A DNA stretch of 64,000 nt from Mesostigma viride (Eukaryota; Streptophyta; Mesostigmatophyceae; Mesostigmatales; Mesostigmataceae): the NCBI GenBank assembly GCA_009746045.1, contig RPFO01000061.1, positions 188,001 to 252,000 on the forward strand. Direction: 5' to 3'. The notes below the pieces were generated by a model. That model ran no database searches and was not told the origin of the DNA. It was given only the letters and a program-made list of their open reading frames with translations. The position numbers and the translations under genes are program-made. Position 1 is the first letter of the stretch, and every line of letters begins with the position of its first letter. Of this stretch, positions 24,341 through 61,200 are shown one piece after another.

Positions 24341-25090
24341 ATGCCTAGCCTATCGCGGATAGCCCCTGGCCGACCCCAACGAGCTACCGCCGTTCACCGA
24401 GCTCGAGCTGAGCACCGCCGCCAAGCAACTCTGCTTCCACAGTTCTATGCCGCCGGCGTTGGACCTGACCAGCTCCCCGCCACGGTGATCAAGCTGACGG
24501 CGCTCACGGGGTTCCGGGATCCGCCTGCTCATTGACGTATGCAAGGCGGATCCTGCTTGCCGACGTGCCGCCGATTCCTGAGTGGCAGCACAGCTACCGT
24601 ATCATGCTGTACTTAAAAACAAAGGTTCCCCTGACGACCCCGCGCCAACTACCGCGGAGTCTGCATCGAGAGCGCCGCACTCAACTTTGTTCATGCGCAT
24701 GATCCTCAACCGCCTTCGTTCTGCTCTCGACCGCGGTCACCTTCAGTTGGAAAGAGTCAAAACTCAAATTGATGGGCTTTCGTCCTGGGCGCCATACCGT
24801 CATGGCAATCTTCGTCGCTCGCCGCCTCGTCGAGGAAATCGCTCTCCTGCAACCTGGTGACGGAGTTTTCCGCCATCCTGATGTTCGTCAACTTCATAAA
24901 GGCTTTTGATTCTGTCCTCTGGGCCGCTCTAATATGGGCTGTCCTTGCTCGCGCTCACGTCCCCACTCCCCTGATTACCGTCATCCGCACGCTGTATGAG
25001 GCCGGGGCGACCGACCAATTCGGTGCGCACTCAACACGGTTTTACCCCGCCATGTCCACTGCAGACCGGCGTCTTGTATAGGGTTGGCGT
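24341..25090 (+). pseudogene. Decayed L1-A ORF2 fragment (reverse transcriptase region)
   Basis: It is collinear with L1-A 4530-5190. Recognisable pieces are NKGSPDDPA, RMILNRLRSAL, FIKAFDSVLWAAL and VPTPLITVIRTLYE in shifting frames. Many 1-10 base insertions, for example GCGCC for GCC and ACTTAAAAAC for ACAAAAAC, break the frame every 30-80 bp, while deletions are rare. Both element ends are missing. Confidence 0.9.
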
Positions 25091-25360: not shown

Positions 25361-25584
25361 CCTTTCGGATTTGGTACTAGATAAATCATGCGAGATCTGT
25401 GTGTGTAGGAGTACTACACACGTGTCCACTCGAGACTTGTTCAGTATATATTAAAAATATAATTACTTACAGCAGAGTGAAATCACTCAAACCAAAGCAA
25501 ACGCCCAGCTATAAACCTATATACAGAGCCATGTCAAAGCTCTATACTACGATAAGACCAATGGAAACGCCTAACGGGAGGAAC

Positions 25585-28500
25585 CTAATAGCCCTGCTGC
25601 ACCGCAAAATCAGCCCGCGTACGGCGGAGCATGATGTCCGCCATGGCCCGAGTCAGCGCCACCGACAAGCGCTGACGCCAATATGACGTCCAGGTCCGCG
25701 CCGACCATGGGGCCCGCTGGCCCTCCAGGTCCAGCCGGTCCTCCCGGAGCCGGCAACACTCCTTGAAGAAGGCGGAGGTCAGGGGCCCCATGGCCCCAAA
25801 CTCCTCCAGGACAAAGGGCACCACACGATGGTGCCCGACGTCGCCGTAGGCCAGGAGCTTGGCCCGCTCCGCCCGGTCCGCCGTGTAACCTGCCGTGAGG
25901 GAGGCCCCAGCCACGTGGCTAAGAGCCAAGGGCCGCGCCACCGAAACGTCAATAAGCAGATGCCGGCCACCCCCCTCAAAGTCCAGCACCACGATGTCAG
26001 GCCGGTGGTTGGGGGAATAGAAGGCAGCGCCATCCGCATCCTCGGACCGGATGTTCGCGTGGGGGAAAACCGACCGAATCATGGCGAGCACCACCGTCAG
26101 GAGGACAGTGTGCAAATACAAATACCAATTCTGATTCTGTTGGCCCCCCATGCAGGCAAGGTAGTGAGTCCCCGTGGGATCCAGCGGCTGCCCACAGCTA
26201 CCACAAGGCCGCCCGGCCGGAACAAGAGGCTGCGGGGCAAATAGCTGGTGCCGGAGCGCCACCGAGTAGTGGCTGGGAGCCAAGGCGAATGGGGGGGCCA
26301 TGGGAAGAGCACGAAGGTACGCCGAGCCCACACTCCGCAAGGAAAGCGAGAACAGCCACGCACGTCCCTGGGCGTTGAGGTCCGCGAAAAGAGCAATCCA
26401 ATCAGCCGTGTGCAGAATACCCGCGTAGGTTTTCTGGTGTTTATCGATGACGCGAGCAGGGAATGCGGCGGGAGATTGAACGGAGGCGACCGAGGGAGTG
26501 CCGCGAGGGAGGTGGCGCTGTACCGCCTGAGCGGCACGGACGGGAGAACAGGCCTGCTGGATCTCAGCATAGGCCTCCTGGATGGCGGTGACGAAGGGCA
26601 AAGGGCTGCTGGGGTCCAGGAGGTCAGGCGCTGCCGTTGCCAAAAGGGGCAGGAGCCGGCAGCTTTCCGCCCACGACTGAGCGACGGAGCCCAAAAAGGC
26701 TGCTGGGGCCAGCCGGGCGGCACGAGTCAGACCGCAGCCACCCATCCGTGCAGGCAGGGAGGCAATGCGAATAGCATGTGGCGGGAGGTCGGGGCCCGGG
26801 ACCAGCTGCGCCAAGGCCGACTGGATGCGTTCGTCGTGGCCCTCGGCGGCCAGCCGGACCTGAGACGGAAGAGCGCCCCGGAGCCAGTGAACGACGCGAG
26901 GGTGAGCGCAAAACCACAGAAGCAGACCCTTGGTCTGCGAATCATGAAGGCGCGCAATCAAGGGCAGTACCTCAGTGCGTGCCTCGAGGGCGGCCCGCAG
27001 AGCATCGATGACAAACGCGGGGTCGCCAACCGGAACGCCGAGGACATCCAACCCATGGAGGCGCTCGTCCCGGCCCAAGAGCTGGGGCGGAAAGCCGGAG
27101 CAATCACCTTGGGGCGAGTACACCGCGCACTTGGCAAGGGTCAACTGGAGGTTGATGTCGGCCACCGCGGTCTGCAGTGCCAGCAGAGCCGCGGTGGTGT
27201 CCGGCACAGGGCCCAGAAGGTAGATATCATCCAAGTAGGCCTGAATAGCGACCGCCGGGTGGGCAGCATGGACCGCTTGGAGGCAACCCTGGAGGGGGGC
27301 GGCAAAGTACAGGGGTCCCAGGGGGTCCCCTTGCTGGGTGCCCGACCGCGACAGCAGGCCGCCGCGAGTGCCGTCCTCCATGATGTGAACCAGTTGGCCG
27401 GGCTGGCCGTAGCACACGGCTGTCCAAGCGTACAAGTCCTCGAAGGACTCCATGACGGCCGCAAACATGCTGGCGCGGGACAGACTGTTGAACGCGTTGT
27501 GGCAGTCGACCTTGACGACAGCGTGGGTGGGGTGGGCCTCGAGGTAGGCCTGCACCGAATGGATGAGGATATCCGCCCCGCCTGGAGTCGTCACCCCCAG
27601 CTGGGCCGCCACCGAGGTCTCACCCGCTGCGAGGGGCGGGCAGAAAAAGGCACGGAGCTCGGGCGCCTTTTGGCGGCAGATCACTTTGCCCACGAGCTTG
27701 CGGAGCACCTCACCGCAGGCGATCGGGCGCACCTTGCCCTCGGGGGGGGCAAGACACCCTTGAGCAGAGCGAGGAGGCGAGCGCCCGCTAACCACTCGCG
27801 CGCAGCGGGAGGAACGCGACCAGCCGCCAGGTCAATGAGGGTGTCAAAGAGAATGTCCTCGCCCCCATGCCCCACCAGGACCTCCAAGTGCTCGTAGCGC
27901 CAGCCCGACGGCCCGGTAGAGGAAGCCCGCGGGACCTCACGCATCACCTCCAGGAAGCAGTCGCGGTCCAGCCGGAGGGGGGCCGGCAGGGGGTCCGGCA
28001 CGGGCAGCTGGAATCCGGGCTCCGCAGGGTGAAGAGCCTCCAAGGCCGCCAGGGTAGCCGCATTGGCGGGGGCGAGCTTGGCCATTTCCAAGCGGGTCAT
28101 GGCCCGGCTGAGCTGCCCCTCGCGGACGAGGCGGATGACGTCGGCGGCCACCCGCTCGAAGTTGACCTCCCCCGACAGCCGGGCCGTGCGCGGGGGCGGC
28201 ACGCCAAACAGCCCCTCCCAGTCCCCCTGCAGAAAGCGTCGGCAACGGGCAATAACCGCACCCTGGAGGCCGCGCACACCACGCCCGAGAGGGGTGAGGA
28301 GCAGGCGGGGGGTCACCATGTGCAGTTTAAAGCCCAGCGGGTCGTCCGGAGCGGCGTGCATGCGCCGGAGAGAAACGATTGCACATTGCGCGAAAAGGCT
28401 ACGCGCGCGGTGGGGGAGGTCGGTCAGGGTAGACGTCGGGTTGATGGCGCATGCATCCCAGGGAACCGTGTCAAGCCAACGCCAACTGGCCGAGTAGTCG

Positions 28501-28589
28501 GGCGGCGGGGGCTGGGAGCCGGGGGAGCCGAGGCGGGAGGGGGGAGGGGGCCGGGACTGCTGGCCGGTTGAGGGGCCGTTGAGCAACAC
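25585..28589 (-). pseudogene. RLE-1 reverse transcriptase and restriction-like endonuclease
   Basis: The first part (28589-27681) covers the fingers side of the reverse transcriptase, with STGPSGWRYEHLEVL. A shift near the G8 run at about 27740 leads into a 736-codon frame (27795-25585). There lie VVKVDCHNAFNSLSR (catalytic Asp 97), SGTQQGDPLGPLY and AYLDDIYLLG (YLDD at residues 187-190). A CCHC knuckle, CGSCGQPLDPTGTHYLAC, comes next, then the endonuclease core HRPDIVVLDFEGG with LLIDVSVARP and a later Lys/Tyr segment (AKLLAYG). Order and motifs fit R2-type enzymes that nick a specific site and prime on it. It ends at a TAG stop at 25585. Confidence 0.9.
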
Positions 28590-29921
28590 AGGCGCGCGCG
28601 TGCTGAGCGCGCCCGTGAATGGAGTACACCCGCTGGCAGTGAGCTTCCGGGCACCGGTAACAGCTCATGGCCTGCAGATCCGCCGCGCCGAGATCGGGGT
28701 GCACAGCGCGAAGGTGCTGGCAGAGGAGGTTACGGTTGTGGAACACACCCGCACACGGGGACCCCGTGGGAAGCAGCACGGCACACCGGTGAAGGCCGTC
28801 GGCGGGCGCTGAGTGGCGGGGAGCGGCGCCAGCAAAGGCAGGACGTGGGGCCTGCGGCGTCTCCCCAGCCGGGCCGGCAGGCGCGCGCACCACGACCCGA
28901 CCAGCGCCCGGCAGGCCCGCCGGGGCCACGGAGGAGGCAGTGCCCACCGGGGAGACCCCCAGCGGAGGGGGATCGAGAACGCCGGCGCCCCTCCCAGGGG
29001 GACTCGCCAGCGCGCCCGCGACCACCCCAGGCCCCGGCAACGAGGCCGGGGGCGGAGGCCGAGGGGTCGGGGAGGCAGCTGGCCCCGGGGCCCGGTGGGG
29101 ACCCGGCAGGGGACCCAGCGAGACCGGGGGCGGGCCGAGAGGAAGCGCAGTCCCAGGGGGCGGCACAACAGCCCGGCACAACGGGCAGCGCGGCACGGAG
29201 TGGAGCAAGCTGCGCGCGATGCACGCTTGATGGAATGTGTGGCCGCACGCGGGCAGGCGACACAAGCCATCCCCCGGCCGGAAGGGCTCAAGGCAGATGG
29301 CACAGGAGCCCGACTCGGGGTCGTCCCCCTCCAGAAGGGACCGGACATGAGGGGGGGCGGGTCCCAGCCGGCCTCCCAGCAACCCGGGAGAGCGGCAATC
29401 TGGGCGCGCGAGAGGATGCCGACCGGTTGGTCAGCCGCGGGGTGCCATTCGTGCGGGATGCCTGCCAACTCCAGGATGTCGTGGAGGAAGGCAGAAACAG
29501 GCGTCCCCGCGGTTAGGGGCTGGGCGCGCCCGGCCGAGTCCACCAAGATGGCCTGGCCGCCCTGAACCGCGATGGGGGCCCCGAACTCCACACGCAGCAT
29601 GGCGGCCTGCGCCAGGCTGAGGGAGGTGATGAGAAAGCCCCCACTGGCAACCGGGCCGGGAGGCGGGGCCTGGGCGTCCAAGAAGAGGCGAAGCTGCCGC
29701 GGGGACATGAGGCCCAGGTCGGCGCCGCCCGCGAGGTAGGCCGCCCGCACCGAGACCTGTGCGTCTCGAGCCACCGCCGTGACGAACTCGACCACCTCCT
29801 GACCCACCCGCTCGTCCAGGGAAAGCAGCTCTTCCTGCCGGGCGGCCGGGAGATGCCACGGCAGCCGGCAGCCGGCGTGATATCCTTCCAAGACATACCC
29901 CCAAAGAGTCGAGGCCGTCAC
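28471..29921 (-). pseudogene. RLE-1 middle region with RING-H2 and C2H2-like zinc fingers
   Basis: Frame 29921 carries a ~190-residue unrecognised domain (for example AAYLAGGADLGLMSPRQLRL). A shift near the G7 run at about 29350 leads to frame 29382. There CAICLEPF to CPLC gives ligands C27, C30, C46, H48, H51, C54, C66 and C69, a canonical RING-H2 (about 29176-29304). Downstream (about 28590-28810) lie SPCAGVFHNRNLLCQHLRAVH and CYRCPEAHCQRVYSIHGRAQ, C2H2-like fingers like those R2 elements use to bind target DNA. RING-H2 domains usually recruit E2 enzymes for ubiquitin transfer. That activity is inferred from the ligand pattern only. Confidence 0.85.
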
Positions 29922-30750
29922 CGGGGGGCGGCGGAAAGAAATGTCGCCCGCACCTGCGCAACTAGGGCCAGGAAGGCCGGGGGCCTAGGGAGCGAGGGGA
30001 AGGCGGCCTGGAGCCCGACCGCGTCCAGCAACAAAGGGCAGTACGCCCAAGAAAAGGTGGCGCGGCCCACCACGCCGACAATGTGCGAGGGCGGCCACGA
30101 GGTGAACGCGTGGGCCCGGGGGCCGCCGTCCCACGCGGCAAGGACGGGGGTGGCGGCTGGGTGGCCAACCGCGGCCGGGGGAAGGGAGGCCAGAGCGTCG
30201 GGGAGCGAGGGGCCGGGGGCGGGCGCCGGGGTCGCCAGGCCCGCCGGGGGTCGGCCGGGCTCAGCCCAGGCGACAGCGCCGCGCCCCCGTCGGCGGGGCC
30301 AGGCGACGGGTGGGGCCCCGGGGCCGAGGGCGCCAGGGCCCGAGCAACGGCGGCCCCATCGGGCAGGCCACGGCCCGCCCCGAGGGCCTCGGCAGGGGGG
30401 CACACGGGGCAGGGGGCCGGAGCACCCAGCGGGGAGGGCAGCCCGGGGGCCCGCCGGGGGGGACAGCGCGGGCACGTCCAGGAGCCCGGCGGGACCCGGT
30501 AGAGCCGGGGAGTAAGACACTGCAAGTGCCACCCGGAATTGCAAGCATCACAAACTAACATGTGGTGCCCGCGGTGCCCGCTCCGGCAGACCTCGCAGAC
30601 CAAGGAGGGGGAGACCGGGGCGCCCGAGCCCCCCGCAGCCGGGTCGCCCACCTCCGCAAGAAGGGCCGCAAGCCGAGAGGACCGCCGAGGCGCCAACCGG
30701 GGAGCGGGGGAGCCGTTGGGCGAAGGGGGTCGTGGGTCGTCCATGAACAA
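29918..30750 (-). pseudogene. RLE-1 N-terminal region with PHD finger
   Basis: The first in-frame Met codons are at 30750. A basic stretch (PRLAPRRSSRLAALL) precedes a C4HC3 PHD finger: C52, C55, C67, C70, H75, C78, C93 and C96, with the usual Trp two residues before the last pair (about 30463-30597). PHD fingers read histone tails in many chromatin proteins. A Pro/Ala-rich linker follows, in which the frame changes somewhere between 30420 and 30180. The second frame gives a conserved-looking segment (VGRATFSWAYCPLLLDAVGL) up to 29918, before a further shift at a G6 run. Confidence 0.85.
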
Positions 30751-30857
30751 TCAGGGCAGGCGTGGCAGCCACCGAGGGGGGGGCGGGGGGTGTGGGGGGC
30801 GGAGCCCCCCACGCGGGGGGTTTGGGGGGCGGCAGCCCCCCAACGCGCTGCGGTCGC

Positions 30858-32375
30858 GGTACCGCCTGCCGTCCGGCACTTTGAAGCCCGCCGGTGCTAT
30901 AATTCCTATCGTCCACGCATGTTTTCCCCTGCCTCAAACCGCACGTTGCATTTAAATCTGGAGCCCAAAATTCACTGAAAACGTGTGCCAGCCGGTAGCA
31001 AACTGGGCCAAGCTGCCACGGAATGGTGGTACCGCCTGCCGTCCGGCACTTTGAAGCCCGCCGGTGCTATAATTCCTATCGTCCACGCATGTTTTCCCCT
31101 GCCTCAAACCGCACGTTGCATTTAAATCTGGAGCCCAAAATTCACTGAAAACGTGTGCCAGCCGGTAGCAAACTGGGCCAAGCTGCCACGGAATGGTGGT
31201 ACCGCCTGCCGTCCGGCACTTTGAAGCCCGCCGGTGCTATAATTCCTATCGTCCACGCATGTTTTCCCCTGCCTCAAACCGCACGTTGCATTTAAATCTG
31301 GAGCCCAAAATTCACTGAAAACGTGTGCCAGCCGGTAGCAAACTGGGCCAAGCTGCCACGGAATGGTGGTACCGCCTGCCGTCCGGCACTTTGAAGCCCG
31401 CCGGTGCTATAATTCCTATCGTCCACGCATGTTTTCCCCTGCCTCAAACCGCACGTTGCATTTAAATCTGGAGCCCAAAATTCACTGAAAACGTGTGCCA
31501 GCCGGTAGCAAACTGGGCCAAGCTGCCACGGAATGGTGGTACCGCCTGCCGTCCGGCACTTTGAAGCCCGCCGGTGCTATAATTCCTATCGTCCACGCAT
31601 GTTTTCCCCTGCCTCAAACCGCACGTTGCATTTAAATCTGGAGCCCAAAATTCACTGAAAACGTGTGCCAGCCGGTAGCAAACTGGGCCAAGCTGCCACG
31701 GAATGGTGGTACCGCCTGCCGTCCGGCACTTTGAAGCCCGCCGGTGCTATAATTCCTATCGTCCACGCATGTTTTCCCCTGCCTCAAACCGCACGTTGCA
31801 TTTAAATCTGGAGCCCAAAATTCACTGAAAACGTGTGCCAGCCGGTAGCAAACTGGGCCAAGCTGCCACGGAATGGTGGTACCGCCTGCCGTCCGGCACT
31901 TTGAAGCCCGCCGGTGCTATAATTCCTATCGTCCACGCATGTTTTCCCCTGCCTCAAACCGCACGTTGCATTTAAATCTGGAGCCCAAAATTCACTGAAA
32001 ACGTGTGCCAGCCGGTAGCAAACTGGGCCAAGCTGCCACGGAATGGTGGTACCGCCTGCCGTCCGGCACTTTGAAGCCCGCCGGTGCTATAATTCCTATC
32101 GTCCACGCATGTTTTCCCCTGCCTCAAACCGCACGTTGCATTTAAATCTGGAGCCCAAAATTCACTGAAAACGTGTGCCAGCCGGTAGCAAACTGGGCCA
32201 AGCTGCCACGGAATGGTGGTACCGCCTGCCGTCCGGCACTTTGAAGCCCGCCGGTGCTATAATTCCTATCGTCCACGCATGTTTTCCCCTGCCTCAAACC
32301 GCACGTTGCATTTAAATCTGGAGCCCAAAATTCACTGAAAACGTGTGCCAGCCGGTAGCAAACGGGGCCAAGCTG
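30858..32375 (-). promoter_or_regulatory. Nine-unit 170-bp tandem array, 5' UTR of RLE-1
   Basis: GGTACCGCCTGCC recurs at 30858, 31028, 31198, 31368, 31538, 31708, 31878, 32048 and 32218, always 170 bp apart. The units look identical by eye, and only the last (outermost) changes at its end (AAACGGGGCC). On the minus strand each unit has GGAATTATAGC and GATTTAAATGC, possible TATA-like elements. Position directly 5' of the ORF suggests repeated promoter monomers. Confidence 0.88.
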
Positions 32376-32750
32376 ACACAGACATCCAAGGATCACGCCA
32401 GGGGCACAAGGTACAACTAACTATACATCACAAAACTACACGCAGCAACAGCGCTGCCGGCCCACCATGCAGGCCTGGAAGGGATCTAGACCGCATGGGT
32501 CGCGACAAAGTCGACCCGGGTGCGGCGGAATAACACATCAGCCACGGTGCGAGTGAGGGCGAGTGACAGGCGCTGCCGCCAATACGAGGACCACGTGCGG
32601 GCCGACCACGGGGCGGTCTGACCCTCGAGGTCGAGGCGGTCTTCACGGCGCTGGCAGCACTCGTGGAAAAACTCCGCTGTCTTGGGGCCTATGGCCCCGA
32701 ACTCCTCAAGGACAATTAAGGGGATGACCCGGTGGGGCCCCACACGAATG
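32376..32750 (-). pseudogene. Second RLE-1-family copy, 3' end only
   Basis: The minus-strand frame (32776-32486) ends with PLIVLEEFGAIGPKTAEFF, RREDRLDLEGQTAPWSARTW and RTRVDFVATHAV. It aligns with the RLE-1 C-terminus (PFVLEEFGAMGPLTSAFF and RREDRLDLEGQRAPWSARTW-like sequence) with clear divergence, so it is a separate subfamily or older copy. About 110 bp of 3' UTR runs into the first 170-bp unit. Its 5' side is cut at an AT-rich junction near 32750. Confidence 0.88.
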
Positions 32751-32782
32751 AGTATATATAATATATTGTTCAGCATATAATA

Positions 32783-34152
32783 TATCTGTTTATTATTGTA
32801 GTGGATTATGTTATGCGCCAGGCACGTGCTCGCTTTGCTAGCATTGCATGCAGGCCGTGCCCCTAGCTGGCCTAGTGATCACGAACGAGCTTGGGGAACG
32901 GGGGGCCGACCAGGCAGATCGAACTTACTACAGCTGACCTCATTTATGCCGACGACATCACGCTCTTCGAAAAGCTGGAGTCTGCCCAACTTTGGCTGGA
33001 CTGCATTGGCGCTCGAGGCTCAGGTGCAGTTGGTCTAGAAATCAGCCCCAATTAAAACGGAGGCCCTGCCGGCTCTCGGCATGGCCGGGGCCCCGCCCAC
33101 ACTCCGCCTCTTAGACGACACCGAGGTCACCTACCCTACTTCAGGCGGCTTCAAGCTGCTCGGCAGCTAGTTCGCTTGATCCCGAAGTCTGCGAGGACGA
33201 CCTGACGACACGTCGGTTGACATGACGATCCGGATCAGCATGGCGTGGGCGCAACTCCATGTCAAGTCCACCGCCGCTCAGTGGTGGAGCAACCTCGCCC
33301 TACCCCGGCCGGATCGTCAAGCGTGACCTCTTCACTACTCTAGCTAGGTCGTCATTCTGACGATCCTGACCTACGGCGCCGAGACCTGGACACTGACGCA
33401 CGAGCGGGAGCATTACGTGCCTCGACGGCACCGTCACCAAGATGCTGCGCAAGGCCCTTAACCCTCATCCCCTTTGGTTTGCACATTAGTTAGTAATGAG
33501 GATTTGTACGCTGATTGCCCTATGTTTCCCACATTATTAGGCACAGGCGCCTGGGCCTAGCCGGGCACCTGGCCCGCACAGATCAGGTAGACACATCAGA
33601 TAGACTAGCTGGCACCAAGCCCACACAGCCTGGGCGTTATGTCCTCACCTGGCGTGCACCAGGTCGCGCGCGCGGCAGGGCCACCACCCGTGGACTTTCC
33701 GTGATACACTCGGCAGCTATAGGACCTGCGCAAAATATGCGCCGTAATTCTGACGCGAGATGGGGCAACGTACATCCGGATCTGACGAATCGCGCCGTAC
33801 TTGCCGAAGATATCGTACATCTCGTCTGCGGTGATGTTGAATGGCTGACATGTGCTATACCCTAGACGTAACGGGCTCACATGCACCCGAGCAGCCTGCT
33901 GGTTTGTCTGTAATGTGGAGGCAACCGATGGTACGCAAGGATAGATGGCAAGCAGTGATGAAGGATCTACCACCCCCAAGTGGGGGCTCCGCGTGTGACC
34001 GCGTATGGCATTCATATGTAGCGATTTGGGCCGTGGTGCCCACAACCCTGTAACTTTTAGGAACTAGATAGCTAGCATCATCCATTCCACCCCATGTTCC
34101 CCTCTCACTGAGGACTTACGCTCACGTGACGCACACACGTGTACATTAGTTA
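32783..34152 (+). pseudogene. Decayed L1-A copy, 3' third, with many micro-insertions
   Basis: It is collinear with L1-A from 5205 to the 3' end, including IYADDITL, the LGLAGHLARTDQ region, the 3' UTR and a decayed terminal hairpin. It ends GTGTACATTAGTTAATTA. Roughly twenty insertions of 1-18 bp break it, several being exact 4-bp tandem duplications (TGCA near 32848, CCGG near 33310, TTAG near 33488), against two or three short deletions. It also carries a ~127-bp foreign insert (33716-33842). Confidence 0.92.
33716..33842 (-). pseudogene. Inserted exon fragment resembling splicing factor SF3B6 (p14)
   Basis: This segment interrupts the L1-A copy between CTCGGCA and TGGCTGACATG. Read on the minus strand, 33841-33776 encodes FNITADEMYDIFGKYG followed by AIRQIR. 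That is the conserved start of the RRM of SF3B6, the U2 snRNP branch-site protein. Right after it comes AT|GTACGT, a good 5' splice donor, so the fragment looks like genomic DNA (exon end plus intron start) rather than a cDNA copy. It is far too short to function. The functional SF3B6 gene is not in this window. Confidence 0.75.
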
Positions 34153-55294: not shown

Positions 55295-58200
55295 GGAATG
55301 ATAATCCTTATAGGATAATGCGTTAGTTGATCTATCCTGGCACTTCGCCTCTGTCAAGTGAACTGCATCGCATCATAGCACACGTTTTTCAAGTACACCC
55401 CACATATCGCAGCGCTGCAAATCCGATAAGTGAAACGCACCACACTAGCACTGCACGTTTGCTAACTGGTGAGTTCCACCATCCTATATATATAGCACAG
55501 CCTTGTCTATACTATATATAGCACAGCATATATATAGCACAGCAAATATATAGCACAGCATATACACAGCACAGCCTTGTCTAAACGAATACCCACCCTC
55601 GTAGCACTGCAGGTTCGTTAAATTGCACTTGGCCGGCGTGGGTTCGCCGAGGCAGTCCGCGTCATCCCAGCACTCGGCTGCGTGCACACGAAAGTTTGTG
55701 CAATGGTGAGGGAAATGCTGAGGTAAAGGAACCAAGCACATAATGGCATCAGGGAAATGCTGAGGTAAAGGAACCAAGCACATAATGGCATCAGGGAAAT
55801 GCTGAGGTAAAGGAACCAAGCACATAATGGCATCAGGGAAATGCTGAGGTAAAGGAACCCAGCACATAATGGCATCAGGGAAATGCTGAGGTAAAGGAAC
55901 CAAGCACATAATGGCATCAGGGAAATGCTGAGGTAAAGGAACCCAGCACATAATGGCATCAGGGAAATGCTGAGGTAAAGGAACCAAGCACATAATGGCA
56001 TCAGGGAAATGCTGAGGTAAAGGAACCAAGCACATAATGGCATCAGGGAAATGCTGAGGTAAAGGAACCAAGCACATAATGGCATCAGGGAAATGCTGAG
56101 GTAAAGGAACCCAGCACATAATGGCATCAGGGAAATGCTGAGGTAAAGGAACCCAGCACATAATGGCATCAGGGAAATGCTGAGGTAAAGGAACCCAGCA
56201 CATAATGGCATCAGGGAAATGCTGAGGTAAAGGAACCCAGCACATAATGGCATCAGGGAAATGCTGAGGTAAAGGAACCAAGCACATAATGGCATCAGGG
56301 AAATGCTGAGGTAAAGGAACCAAGGACATAATGGCATCAGGGAAATGCTGAGGTAAAGGAACCCAGCACATAATGGCATCAGGGAAATGCTGAGGTAAAG
56401 GAACCAAGCACATAATGGCATCAGGGAAATGCTGAGGTAAAGGAACCAAGCACATAATGGCATCAGGGAAATGCTGAGGTAAAGGAACCAAGCACATAAT
56501 GGCATCAGGGAAATGCTGAGGTAAAGGAACCAAGCACATAATGGCATCAGGGAAATGCTGAGGTAAAGGAACCCAGCACATAATGGCATCAGGGAAATGC
56601 TGAGGTAAAGGAACCAAGCACATAATGGCATCAGGGAAATGCTGAGGTAAAGGAACCCAGCACATAATGGCATCAGGGAAATGCTGAGGTAAAGGAACCC
56701 AGCACATAATGGCATCAGGGAAATGCTGAGGTAAAGGAACCAAGCACATAATGGCATCAGGGAAATGCTGAGGTAAAGGAACCCAGCACATAATGGCATC
56801 AGGGAAATGCTGAGGTAAAGGAACCAAGGACATAATGGCATCAGGGAAATGCTGAGGTAAAGGAACCAAGCACATAATGGCATCAGGGAAATGCTGAGGT
56901 AAAGGAACCAAGCACATAATGGCATCAGGGAAATGCTGAGGTAAAGGAACCCAGCACATAATGGCATCAGGGAAATGCTGAGGTAAAGGAACCAAGCACA
57001 TAATGGCATCAGGGAAATGCTGAGGTAAAGGAACCAAGGACATAATGGCATCAGGGAAATGCTGAGGTAAAGGAACCAAGCACATAATGGCATCAGGGAA
57101 ATGCTGAGGTAAAGGAACCAAGCACATAATGGCATCAGGGAAATGCTGAGGTAAAGGAACCAAGCACATAATGGCATCAGGGAAATGCTGAGGTAAAGGA
57201 ACCCAGCACATAATGGCATCAGGGAAATGCTGAGGTAAAGGAACCCAGCACATAATGGCATCAGGGAAATGCTGAGGTAAAGGAACCAAGCACATAATGG
57301 CATCAGGGAAATGCTGAGGTAAAGGAACCCAGCACATAATGGCATCAGGGAAATGCTGAGGTAAAGGAACCAAGCACATAATGGCATCAGGGAAATGCTG
57401 AGGTAAAGGAACCAAGCACATAATGGCATCAGGGAAATGCTGAGGTAAAGGAACCCAGCACATAATGGCATCAGGGAAATGCTGAGGTAAAGGAACCAAG
57501 CACATAATGGCATCAGGGAAATGCTGAGGTAAAGGAACCCAGCACATAATGGCATCAGGGAAATGCTGAGGTAAAGGAACCCAGCACATAATGGCATCAG
57601 GGAAATGCTGAGGTAAAGGAACCAAGGACATAATGGCATCAGGGAAATGCTGAGGTAAAGGAACCAAGGACATAATGGCATCAGGGAAATGCTGAGGTAA
57701 AGGAACCAAGGACATAATGGCATCAGGGAAATGCTGAGGTAAAGGAACCAAGCACATAATGGCATCAGGGAAATGCTGAGGTAAAGGAACCAAGCACATA
57801 ATGGCATCAGGGAAATGCTGAGGTAAAGGAACCAAGCACATAATGGCATCAGGGAAATGCTGAGGTAAAGGAACCAAGCACATAATGGCATCAGGGAAAT
57901 GCTGAGGTAAAGGAACCCAGCACATAATGGCATCAGGGAAATGCTGAGGTAAAGGAACCAAGCACATAATGGCATCAGGGAAATGCTGAGGTAAAGGAAC
58001 CCAGCACATAATGGCATCAGGGAAATGCTGAGGTAAAGGAACCCAGCACATAATGGCATCAGGGAAATGCTGAGGTAAAGGAACCCAGCACATAATGGCA
58101 TCAGGGAAATGCTGAGGTAAAGGAACCCAGCACATAATGGCATCAGGGAAATGCTGAGGTAAAGGAACCCAGCACATAATGGCATCAGGGAAATGCTGAG

Positions 58201-61200
58201 GTAAAGGAACCAAGCACATAATGGCATCAGGGAAATGCTGAGGTAAAGGAACCCAGCACATAATGGCATCAGGGAAATGCTGAGGTAAAGGAACCCAGCA
58301 CATAATGGCATCAGGGAAATGCTGAGGTAAAGGAACCAAGCACATAATGGCATCAGGGAAATGCTGAGGTAAAGGAACCCAGCACATAATGGCATCAGGG
58401 AAATGCTGAGGTAAAGGAACCCAGCACATAATGGCATCAGGGAAATGCTGAGGTAAAGGAACCAAGCACATAATGGCATCAGGGAAATGCTGAGGTAAAG
58501 GAACCCAGCACATAATGGCATCAGGGAAATGCTGAGGTAAAGGAACCCAGCACATAATGGCATCAGGGAAATGCTGAGGTAAAGGAACCAAGGACATAAT
58601 GGCATCAGGGAAATGCTGAGGTAAAGGAACCAAGCACATAATGGCATCAGGGAAATGCTGAGGTAAAGGAACCAAGCACATAATGGCATCAGGGAAATGC
58701 TGAGGTAAAGGAACCAAGCACATAATGGCATCAGGGAAATGCTGAGGTAAAGGAACCCAGCACATAATGGCATCAGGGAAATGCTGAGGTAAAGGAACCA
58801 AGCACATAATGGCATCAGGGAAATGCTGAGGTAAAGGAACCCAGCACATAATGGCATCAGGGAAATGCTGAGGTAAAGGAACCCAGCACATAATGGCATC
58901 AGGGAAATGCTGAGGTAAAGGAACCAAGCACATAATGGCATCAGGGAAATGCTGAGGTAAAGGAACCAAGGACATAATGGCATCAGGGAAATGCTGAGGT
59001 AAAGGAACCAAGGACATAATGGCATCAGGGAAATGCTGAGGTAAAGGAACCAAGCACATAATGGCATCAGGGAAATGCTGAGGTAAAGGAACCAAGCACA
59101 TAATGGCATCAGGGAAATGCTGAGGTAAAGGAACCAAGCACATAATGGCATCAGGGAAATGCTGAGGTAAAGGAACCCAGCACATAATGGCATCAGGGAA
59201 ATGCTGAGGTAAAGGAACCAAGCACATAATGGCATCAGGGAAATGCTGAGGTAAAGGAACCCAGCACATAATGGCATCAGGGAAATGCTGAGGTAAAGGA
59301 ACCCAGCACATAATGGCATCAGGGAAATGCTGAGGTAAAGGAACCCAGCACATAATGGCATCAGGGAAATGCTGAGGTAAAGGAACCCAGCACATAATGG
59401 CATCAGGGAAATGCTGAGGTAAAGGAACCAAGCACATAATGGCATCAGGGAAATGCTGAGGTAAAGGAACCCAGCACATAATGGCATCAGGGAAATGCTG
59501 AGGTAAAGGAACCAAGGACATAATGGCATCAGGGAAATGCTGAGGTAAAGGAACCCAGCACATAATGGCATCAGGGAAATGCTGAGGTAAAGGAACCAAG
59601 CACATAATGGCATCAGGGAAATGCTGAGGTAAAGGAACCAAGCACATAATGGCATCAGGGAAATGCTGAGGTAAAGGAACCAAGCACATAATGGCATCAG
59701 GGAAATGCTGAGGTAAAGGAACCAAGCACATAATGGCATCAGGGAAATGCTGAGGTAAAGGAACCAAGCACATAATGGCATCAGGGAAATGCTGAGGTAA
59801 AGGAACCAAGCACATAATGGCATCAGGGAAATGCTGAGGTAAAGGAACCAAGCACATAATGGCATCAGGGAAATGCTGAGGTAAAGGAACCAAGCACATA
59901 ATGGCATCAGGGAAATGCTGAGGTAAAGGAACCCAGCACATAATGGCATCAGGGAAATGCTGAGGTAAGCTCATGGAAGGTAAGGGCAACGGAGCAGCAT
60001 GCACAATCCCAGCACTAGGCTGCGCGGATGTACGTCTGTTCAATGGTACGGGCACCAAGGATGTAAGGGCAATGAGGCAGTGTGGAGGGAAGGTCATGAA
60101 AGCCCAAAGGCAAGGGCAACGAGGCATTCCGCCTCATTCCAGCCCTCGATAGCGATGTGGTCAGGCAAGATTGCTACAGTGGTAAGGGCAACCAGGCAAT
60201 GTGGCGATCAGCCAACATATGGGCAACAGGGGCACTTGCTGCGCTGCAGTTTGTACGACATCCCCTGGCCCTTGGCGGCGTGGCATAAAGGTAGTGCTAT
60301 TGGCAATGGCACGCGATACAAGAATAATGCCCCACTAGGACTGTTGGCGATGGCAAGCGATAGAAGAATAATGCCCCACTAGGACTGTTGGCGATGGCAA
60401 GCGATAGAAGAATAATGCCCCGTTAGGACTGTTGGCGATGGCAAGCGATAGAAGAATAATACCCCGTTAGGACTGTTGGCGATGGCAAGCGACAGAAGAA
60501 TAATGCCCCACTAGGACTGTTGGCGATGGCAAGCGACAGAAGAATAATGCCCCACAGAGGTTGAGGAGACGATCAACACACACAAAAACAATTAACTGCG
60601 CGCACGAACACACACGGAGGCACGCGCACGCGCATGGCCACGGCCACGGCCATGGCCAGACCCACACACAGATGCACACAATATACAAATGCACACGACA
60701 CAAACACACAAAGACACACACAGCACACAAACGCACACACGCACGCACACACACACACAAACACACCCATGCACACATTGCTCGCGTGTCACTGCACCGC
60801 TTGCTCATGTATCACCACAGCTCAGGGCTGCACACTCGCCAGTTGCAAAGCCATAATGCCTGCGAACCTCAGCTTGCAAACCCACCCTGTGGGGCGCATC
60901 AGCCCTTAAAATTATGCGAGGATGAAAATTTTTTTCACATCCACGCCTGCGCATGATGCAAAGCAAGGCGTGAACGTACGAATCCACGCGCAGGTTAGGC
61001 AAGATTGTTACAATGGTGTGCGCTATACACTTGTTTGAGGACATACAGAGCAGAAGGGATGCAAGGCAAGGCGCGGACTTACGAATCCACACGCATTTGT
61101 TGTCGACCAGGTTGCAGGTGTCCCCGTTTGGGTGTCCCACGCAGTGCGTGTTGTTGACGCACTCCTCTGCACAGGGCGAGCGAGGGATGTATGAGAAGGG

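Follow-up and report, generated by a model that had tools for sequence, protein, structure and literature searches.

The DNA analyzed here, called the window, is a stretch of 64,000 nucleotides from the streptophyte alga Mesostigma viride (contig RPFO01000061.1, positions 188,001 to 252,000), and on its minus strand it carries a long interspersed nuclear element (LINE) in which two fingers, PHD and RING-H2, are encoded ahead of its reverse transcriptase (RT) and restriction-like endonuclease (RLE). The coding order is PHD, MID, RING-H2, C2H2 pair, pre-RT, RT, CCHC and RLE, where MID denotes a domain between the two fingers (Table 1). Both fingers are present in all 20 compared copies of this family (family 1) and recur in a diverged sister family (family 2); they look like working parts of the element and not like an accident. 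In the reading that we prefer, with a probability of roughly 0.45, this would be an autonomous RLE LINE in which the PHD finger serves as a tether to histone H3 and the RING finger acts on chromatin or on a host factor.

The two fingers and the copies that carry them

A first-pass annotation, made from the letters of the window, had placed the element at 25585..30750. The minus strand and the existence of an element stand, whereas the length was too short, the real span being approximately 25445-32379 with a 170-bp tandem array included. Position 25445 is where the match ends in 18 of the 19 other copies, and in L015 it ends one base short. Since the array lies upstream of the coding region in all 20 compared copies and varies in monomer number, we assign it to the element, which is a single unit.

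The genome (439.9 Mb in 2243 contigs) was searched with the DNA of the element, giving 32 matches, 25 of which are full-length over 5166 bases when the window copy is counted. Twenty of these full copies were compared, the window copy (L009) among them, and the 19 others are 99.74-99.95% identical to it over a 5.46-kb body. The 748-residue RT-RLE frame is open and 100% identical in all of the best 60 of 8193 genome candidates, a number that is a lower bound. Because the copies are nearly identical and their RT-RLE frames are open and identical, family 1 is young and recently active. Copies lacking either finger, which would have pointed to a chance juxtaposition, do not occur among the 20.

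The PHD finger, which the annotation had seen at C52-C96, is recognized by Pfam at exactly these residues of frame 30750-29962 (PF00628, 40.8 bits, cut-off 24) in a run on seven frames of the window. The C4HC3 zinc ligands and the Trp before the last ligand pair are present, and all eight ligands are the same in both families. Its best solved relatives are CHD4, WSTF, ATXR5 and KDM5B, with UHRF2 and UHRF1 lower in the list. A Trp at the cage position, two residues before the ligand His, is the mark of PHD fingers that read histone H3 trimethylated at lysine 4 (H3K4me3). Both element families have Gly here, not Trp, and the solved relatives ATXR5, KDM5B and WSTF have Gly, Ser and Ala, respectively. 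We take it that such a cage-less PHD finger resembles the readers of unmodified H3K4.

The RING-H2 finger likewise has Pfam support (PF13639, RING_2, 44.6 bits, cut-off 27.3) at residues 42-86 of the stop-to-stop frame 29430-28471, and corresponds to the C27-C69 of the annotation, which had numbered from another start. It has the C3H2C3 ligands, all eight of them shared by the two families, and its solved relatives are RNF165, Arkadia and RNF13. An Ile between the first two Cys and a linchpin Arg after the last Cys are tied to activation of the complex of ubiquitin and its conjugating enzyme (E2), and a Trp is the usual further contact to E2. Both families keep the Ile and the Arg. The remaining ligand patterns that had been noticed (C2H2-like, YLDD, CCHC and RLE) were also correct, and the whole set lies within the one element.

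Table 1 Features of the family 1 copy and its neighbor in the window.
Feature	Position	Strand	Basis
Whole element, family 1 (tandem monomers at the 5' end, a single coding region and a short 3' untranslated region)	25445..32379	-	copy ends and array start
5' array, 170-bp monomers x 9	30858..32379	-	tandem repeat; 5.4 to >17 monomers in other copies
PHD finger, C4HC3	30463..30597	-	Pfam PF00628
MID domain, ~250 residues, PHD-RING interval	29424..30160	-	frames 30160-29921 and 29927-29424
RING-H2 finger (CAIC..CGHTFHQAC..CPLCR)	29173..29307	-	Pfam PF13639
C2H2-like finger pair ahead of RT	28588..28785	-	55% identity to family 2
Pre-RT region	27744..28493	-	48% identity to P0001; 61% to family 2 copy L031
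RT-linker-RLE frame, 748 residues	25585..27831	-	open frame
RT core, YLDD at 27226-27237	27091..27738	-	Pfam PF00078; D201 D202 invariant
CCHC knuckle C543-C546-H556-C560	26152..26205	-	invariant columns
RLE core RPDIVVLD...LIDVSV	25939..26004	-	P611 D612 nearly invariant
Family 2 3'-end fragment, directly upstream of the family 1 copy	32486..32878	-	74% amino acid identity to family 1 RLE tail

Reading frames and the sister family

In the window copy, third-position GC content reveals five frame changes, which separate PHD, the first part of MID, the second part of MID, RING-C2H2, pre-RT and RT. As judged by frame length, other natural copies cross some of these joints: the PHD-MID joint is crossed in 2 of 20 copies (L020 and L021; one copy translated), the joint within MID in one (L026; translated), and the joint from MID to RING-C2H2 in four (L011, L018, L019 and L024; one translated). 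The C2H2-pre-RT and pre-RT-RT joints are crossed in none of the 20. Programmed frameshifting is an unlikely account of family 1, since the joints in question are read through in other natural copies.

The missing joints are supplied by family 2. It came to view in L025, where a family 1 copy stands beside a 5'-truncated piece with 68% RT identity to family 1; this piece has two open frames with one break between them, 278 residues from the second C2H2 finger into pre-RT and 297 residues from pre-RT into RT. A DNA search for family 2 gave 42 matches, 33 of them over the full 1560 bases. In L029, PHD, MID and RING stand in one frame of 847 residues, in which Pfam scores both the PHD finger (29.2 bits) and the RING finger (37.9 bits) above cut-off; its frame is interrupted after RING, ahead of C2H2. 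On contig 2102 lies a copy that is unbroken from RING to RLE, in that a 393-residue frame (L030, end of MID to RING, C2H2 and pre-RT) overlaps by 51 bases, in the same frame, with one of 917 residues (L031, pre-RT to RT and RLE); the frame of this copy is interrupted in MID and again within PHD. L031 shares 99.4% identity with the L025 piece and, over 127 bases, 97% with the window fragment 32486-32878; all three therefore belong to one family. A tail in L010 that was considered for a third family turned out to belong to family 2. Between them, two natural family 2 copies thus cover PHD to RLE in overlapping unbroken frames, one from PHD to RING and the other from RING to RLE. The question raised in the first-pass annotation, whether PHD and RING are joined in one frame, has a divided answer: they are in L029, and in the window copy PHD, MID, RING and RT lie in different frames.

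Are the family 1 frame changes errors of the sequence or properties of the element? The frame changes lie, by reading, near C-rich runs, four of the seven indel sites found in coding sequence are at C-runs, and the published Mesostigma viride assembly was built, as its report (PMC6947507) states, from PacBio RSII reads polished with Illumina data. Read errors are therefore a fair explanation, if not a full one, for three of the seven sites lie away from C-runs and two of these are common to 6 and 10 copies, so that not all of them look like read errors. If the changes were real, family 1 would make its proteins separately or by frameshifting, or would consist mostly of dead copies. Such an explanation could draw on the off-run sites, on the two joints that are broken in all 20 copies while the others are broken in 16 to 19, and on four of the five changes being in the same direction. 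It is nevertheless very unlikely in our view, given that individual family 1 copies read across three of the five joints and family 2 copies across all five. Moreover, P0033, a EukProt protein labelled Prorocentrum lima, has MID and RING in one frame and is identical to the element over 332 MID-RING residues, although its frame departs from that of the element after residue 332. Because of this identity the label is taken as contamination or mislabeling, horizontal transfer being less likely.

The broken frames of the window copy are also all that would favor a chance juxtaposition of two host genes or of different elements. Against this stand both fingers in every compared copy and in a single frame in family 2, which leave chance with a practically negligible probability; together with the 25 full copies they rule out host-gene capture as well.

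Selection was assessed by comparing family 1 with family 2 (Nei-Gojobori ratio of nonsynonymous to synonymous substitution rates, dN/dS), where dS values of 1.4 to 2.0 make the ratios rough. RING is 71% identical at dN/dS 0.16, MID 59% at 0.17, the C2H2 pair 55% at 0.22 and the N-arm 55% at 0.28, as against 35% and 0.55 for the linker. The C2H2-pre-RT piece gave 0.25, RT 0.15 and RLE 0.11 and 0.10, the window fragment of family 2 having the value 0.10 against the family 1 RLE tail. In all six segments compared, amino acid identity was higher than in any of 500 nulls with shuffled substitutions, the margin being smallest in the linker. The values of 0.16-0.22 against 0.55 support the view that the RING, MID and C2H2 parts are under selection. 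Purifying selection on both fingers, as envisaged in the annotation, is borne out for RING; for the PHD finger dS is saturated and yields no ratio, and its 59% identity is above all 500 nulls.

The MID domain has a conserved Cys (FSW.YCPLLLDAVGL) and a conserved His (GIPH.WHPA), which may be compatible with a papain-like protease and prove nothing. It has no Pfam match even at E 10 and no sequence match in the PDB, so that a protease is no more than a lead; an Ulp1-like protease was not detected in the element either. A two-sequence MID profile matched only P0033 significantly among 33 related proteins.

Relatives of the element and a possible role of the module

The RT matches Pfam PF00078 (RVT_1) at 42.7 bits (cut-off 29.6) and has the YLDD motif. 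Among 10 aligned sequences D201 and D202 of the RT and the CCHC knuckle are invariant, and P611-D612 of the RLE nearly so. An RT profile compared with solved structures found R2 proteins best (52.8 bits, against 26.4 bits for L1 ORF2p), and the RLE gave a weak alignment of 10.0 bits to the R2 endonuclease region of a solved structure. By its sequence the element is an RLE-type LINE with an R2-like RT. The hallmark of the R2 clade, insertion into the 28S rRNA gene, does not apply, the junctions being at varied TA-rich sites, and no Rfam family was found in the window.

Three protein searches, each scoring the 8000 candidates sharing most words, gave at least 33 related proteins, 32 of which match the RT-RLE part, with P0033 in addition. 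The closest among the matches listed is P0001 (51% identity), which is without the N-terminus. One of the 32, P0002, is the element itself: a Mesostigma viride gene model (JGI Mesvir1) with the RLE tail at 86% identity over 57% of the query and, by reading, with long stretches of identity. In this model an Enkurin domain is fused to the tail, perhaps as an annotation chimera or through an intronic insertion. A Pfam scan of 17 of the 32 found PHD or RING in none, and the precomputed domains of the other 15 include neither. Many of these proteins are shortened at the N-terminus, and seven with long N-termini are informative (P0023-P0027, P0030 and P0031). The best local scores of MID against these seven N-termini were inside the shuffle range (z at most 2.6). 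In a tree of 25 rows, without RLE-clade references, the window family formed a group of 7 with P0001, P0003, P0004, P0006, P0007 and P0021 (support 88/88, node drawn open). P0025 and P0027 fell in the wider, starred group, which has 15 members, and the branch of P0027 is long. Among IMG/VR contigs, 10 pattern matches included no relative of the element.

Cys/His pairs akin to the C2H2 pair can be seen by eye in P0021 and P0023-P0025. Residues 1-450 of P0026 are rich in Cys pairs and RING-like by eye, where Pfam finds no RING; after this part, GQGHNCLCN and GHWMVLHP could belong to a cysteine protease, where Pfam finds none.

The element shares with RLE LINEs such as R2, R4, NeSL/Utopia, CRE and HERO the N-terminal zinc fingers, a YxDD RT, the CCHC knuckle, the RLE and a short target preference. 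It differs from them in the N-terminal PHD, MID and RING, and in a target that is TA-rich and not 28S rDNA or U2 genes. The single open reading frame (ORF) with N-terminal zinc fingers is seen in family 2, through its two overlapping frames; no one copy has it over the full length, and family 1 does not have it. Nematode NeSL elements and one Utopia carry an N-terminal Ulp1-like protease, according to passages of PMC4640811. Among LINE proteins, ORF1 of CR1/L2 elements is known to have a PHD finger close to its N-terminus (PMC4120745), but these elements are apurinic endonuclease (APE) LINEs of another superfamily, and the word RING is absent from the main text of that report, whose authors were aware of no functional work on the PHD finger of a LINE. 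The annotation knew of no endonuclease-type LINE with PHD and RING together, and among the papers listed from the open-licence PMC literature (titles, abstract starts and some passages; Repbase and most subscription journals lie outside it) we found no description of an RLE LINE with PHD or RING.

On the ligase-at-chromatin model, mRNA of the element would be driven by the 5' tandem monomers, and the PHD finger would tether the ribonucleoprotein to nucleosomes through an H3 tail whose K4 is probably unmodified. Choosing and nicking a TA-rich site would fall to the C2H2 pair and the RLE, and reverse transcription would be primed there. The RING finger, as a candidate ligase, would recruit a host E2 and ubiquitinate a protein at the insertion site, which could be a histone tail or one of the host's silencing or repair factors, and the ubiquitin mark might help integration or expression of the new copy. 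Several observations weigh against this reading. All 20 family 1 copies have broken frames, and no end-to-end ORF occurs in a single copy of either family among those examined. PHD or RING is found by Pfam in none of the seven long relatives, so that this kind of LINE needs no such module in general. Finally, the usual E2-contact Trp of the RING finger is absent, with Ser in both families, so that RING activity could be weak or absent.

The missing Trp also speaks for a RING finger that is a zinc-binding scaffold and not a ligase, with PHD, RING and C2H2 binding RNA, DNA or each other in the ribonucleoprotein; N-terminal zinc fingers are, according to passages of PMC5678591 and PMC4640811, usual in RLE LINEs. 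Such a scaffold is possible, if on the unlikely side, as the E2-linked Ile and Arg are kept in both families despite high synonymous divergence, and as Pfam assigns RING_2 and the solved relatives are named E3 ligases. A ligase might instead target the protein of the element itself, either to limit dose or to clear the RT complex off the target once synthesis is complete, and leave host proteins alone. In family 2, one natural frame does put RING into the same polypeptide as RT and RLE, but for this purpose the PHD finger would not be needed, and we consider it rather improbable.

A bolder form of the ligase-at-chromatin model rests on UHRF1 and the plant VIM (ORTHRUS) proteins, which combine a PHD finger for the unmodified H3 tail with a RING finger in one protein. 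The element resembles UHRF1 in this layout only, with the UHRF1/2 PHD fingers among the solved relatives. It differs from UHRF1/VIM in having RT and RLE, and Pfam scans of its proteins (E up to 0.1) listed neither an SRA nor any other UHRF domain. Its PHD finger might then bind unmodified H3 while RING ubiquitinates H3 or a silencing or repair factor, and MID may add a papain-like activity. Among the relatives, P0025 has an OTU protease above cut-off (41.4 bits) and P0027 one below it (20.3 bits). These two belong to the same wider RT group as the element and, like it, have a long N-terminal extension, which in their case holds the OTU, a ubiquitin-system enzyme; unlike it, they have no PHD or RING by Pfam, and OTU proteases remove ubiquitin. 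The wider group may thus have recruited ubiquitin enzymes repeatedly (RING here, OTU in P0025). We regard this extended version as doubtful. If true, a UHRF/VIM-like module would let the element edit its target chromatin.

How LINEs find and prepare target chromatin becomes directly testable with a conserved PHD-MID-RING module in a young LINE, which would be a mobile element bringing its own candidate ubiquitin ligase. The two diverged families permit a comparison on whether retroelements read and mark their target chromatin.

Insertion sites and the surroundings of the element

The 5' junction is readable in 12 of the 20 copies. ATATAT or TATATA occurs within 20 bases of it in 7 of the 12, as compared with 0.93% of random 20-mers of the window; by a looser reading, without a control, ATAT lies within 30 bases in 11 of the 12. 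The window copy has no ATATAT-like site, and its 5' side adjoins the family 2 fragment. It is clear from these counts that insertion prefers short TA-rich, ATATAT-like targets. Strings of 10-14 bases are common to both flanks in 4 of the 12 (L013, L014, L015 and L017), but since they include the element's own ATATATA end, the proven target duplication is only a few bases. Because the element ends in AATATATA, which matches these insertion sites, target-primed insertion with microhomology is likely. Five copies (L016, L017, L018, L021 and L024) adjoin the 3' part of another copy, head to tail or inverted, which suggests that copies themselves serve as insertion targets.

Mouse L1 elements have 5' monomers of about 200 bp in tandem, variable in number and differing between families. 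The arrays seen here resemble them, with 170 bp in family 1 and a different monomer of 231 bp in L029, but in an algal RLE LINE, and by this analogy the monomers may be promoter-like. Just 5' of the coding region lies a GC-rich stretch with short inverted repeats (GGGGGGCTGCCGCCCCCC), at 30783-30865 of the window and 2438-2519 of L029. The two families share 90% identity over 83 bases of it, although synonymous coding sites are nearly saturated.

Just downstream of the element, at 24773-25081 on the plus strand, a short frame contains an RT-like motif (FIKAFDSVLW, by eye) of another LINE kind. Farther away, at 55709-59968, a 42-bp unit forms an array of some 101 copies, which are 98% alike.

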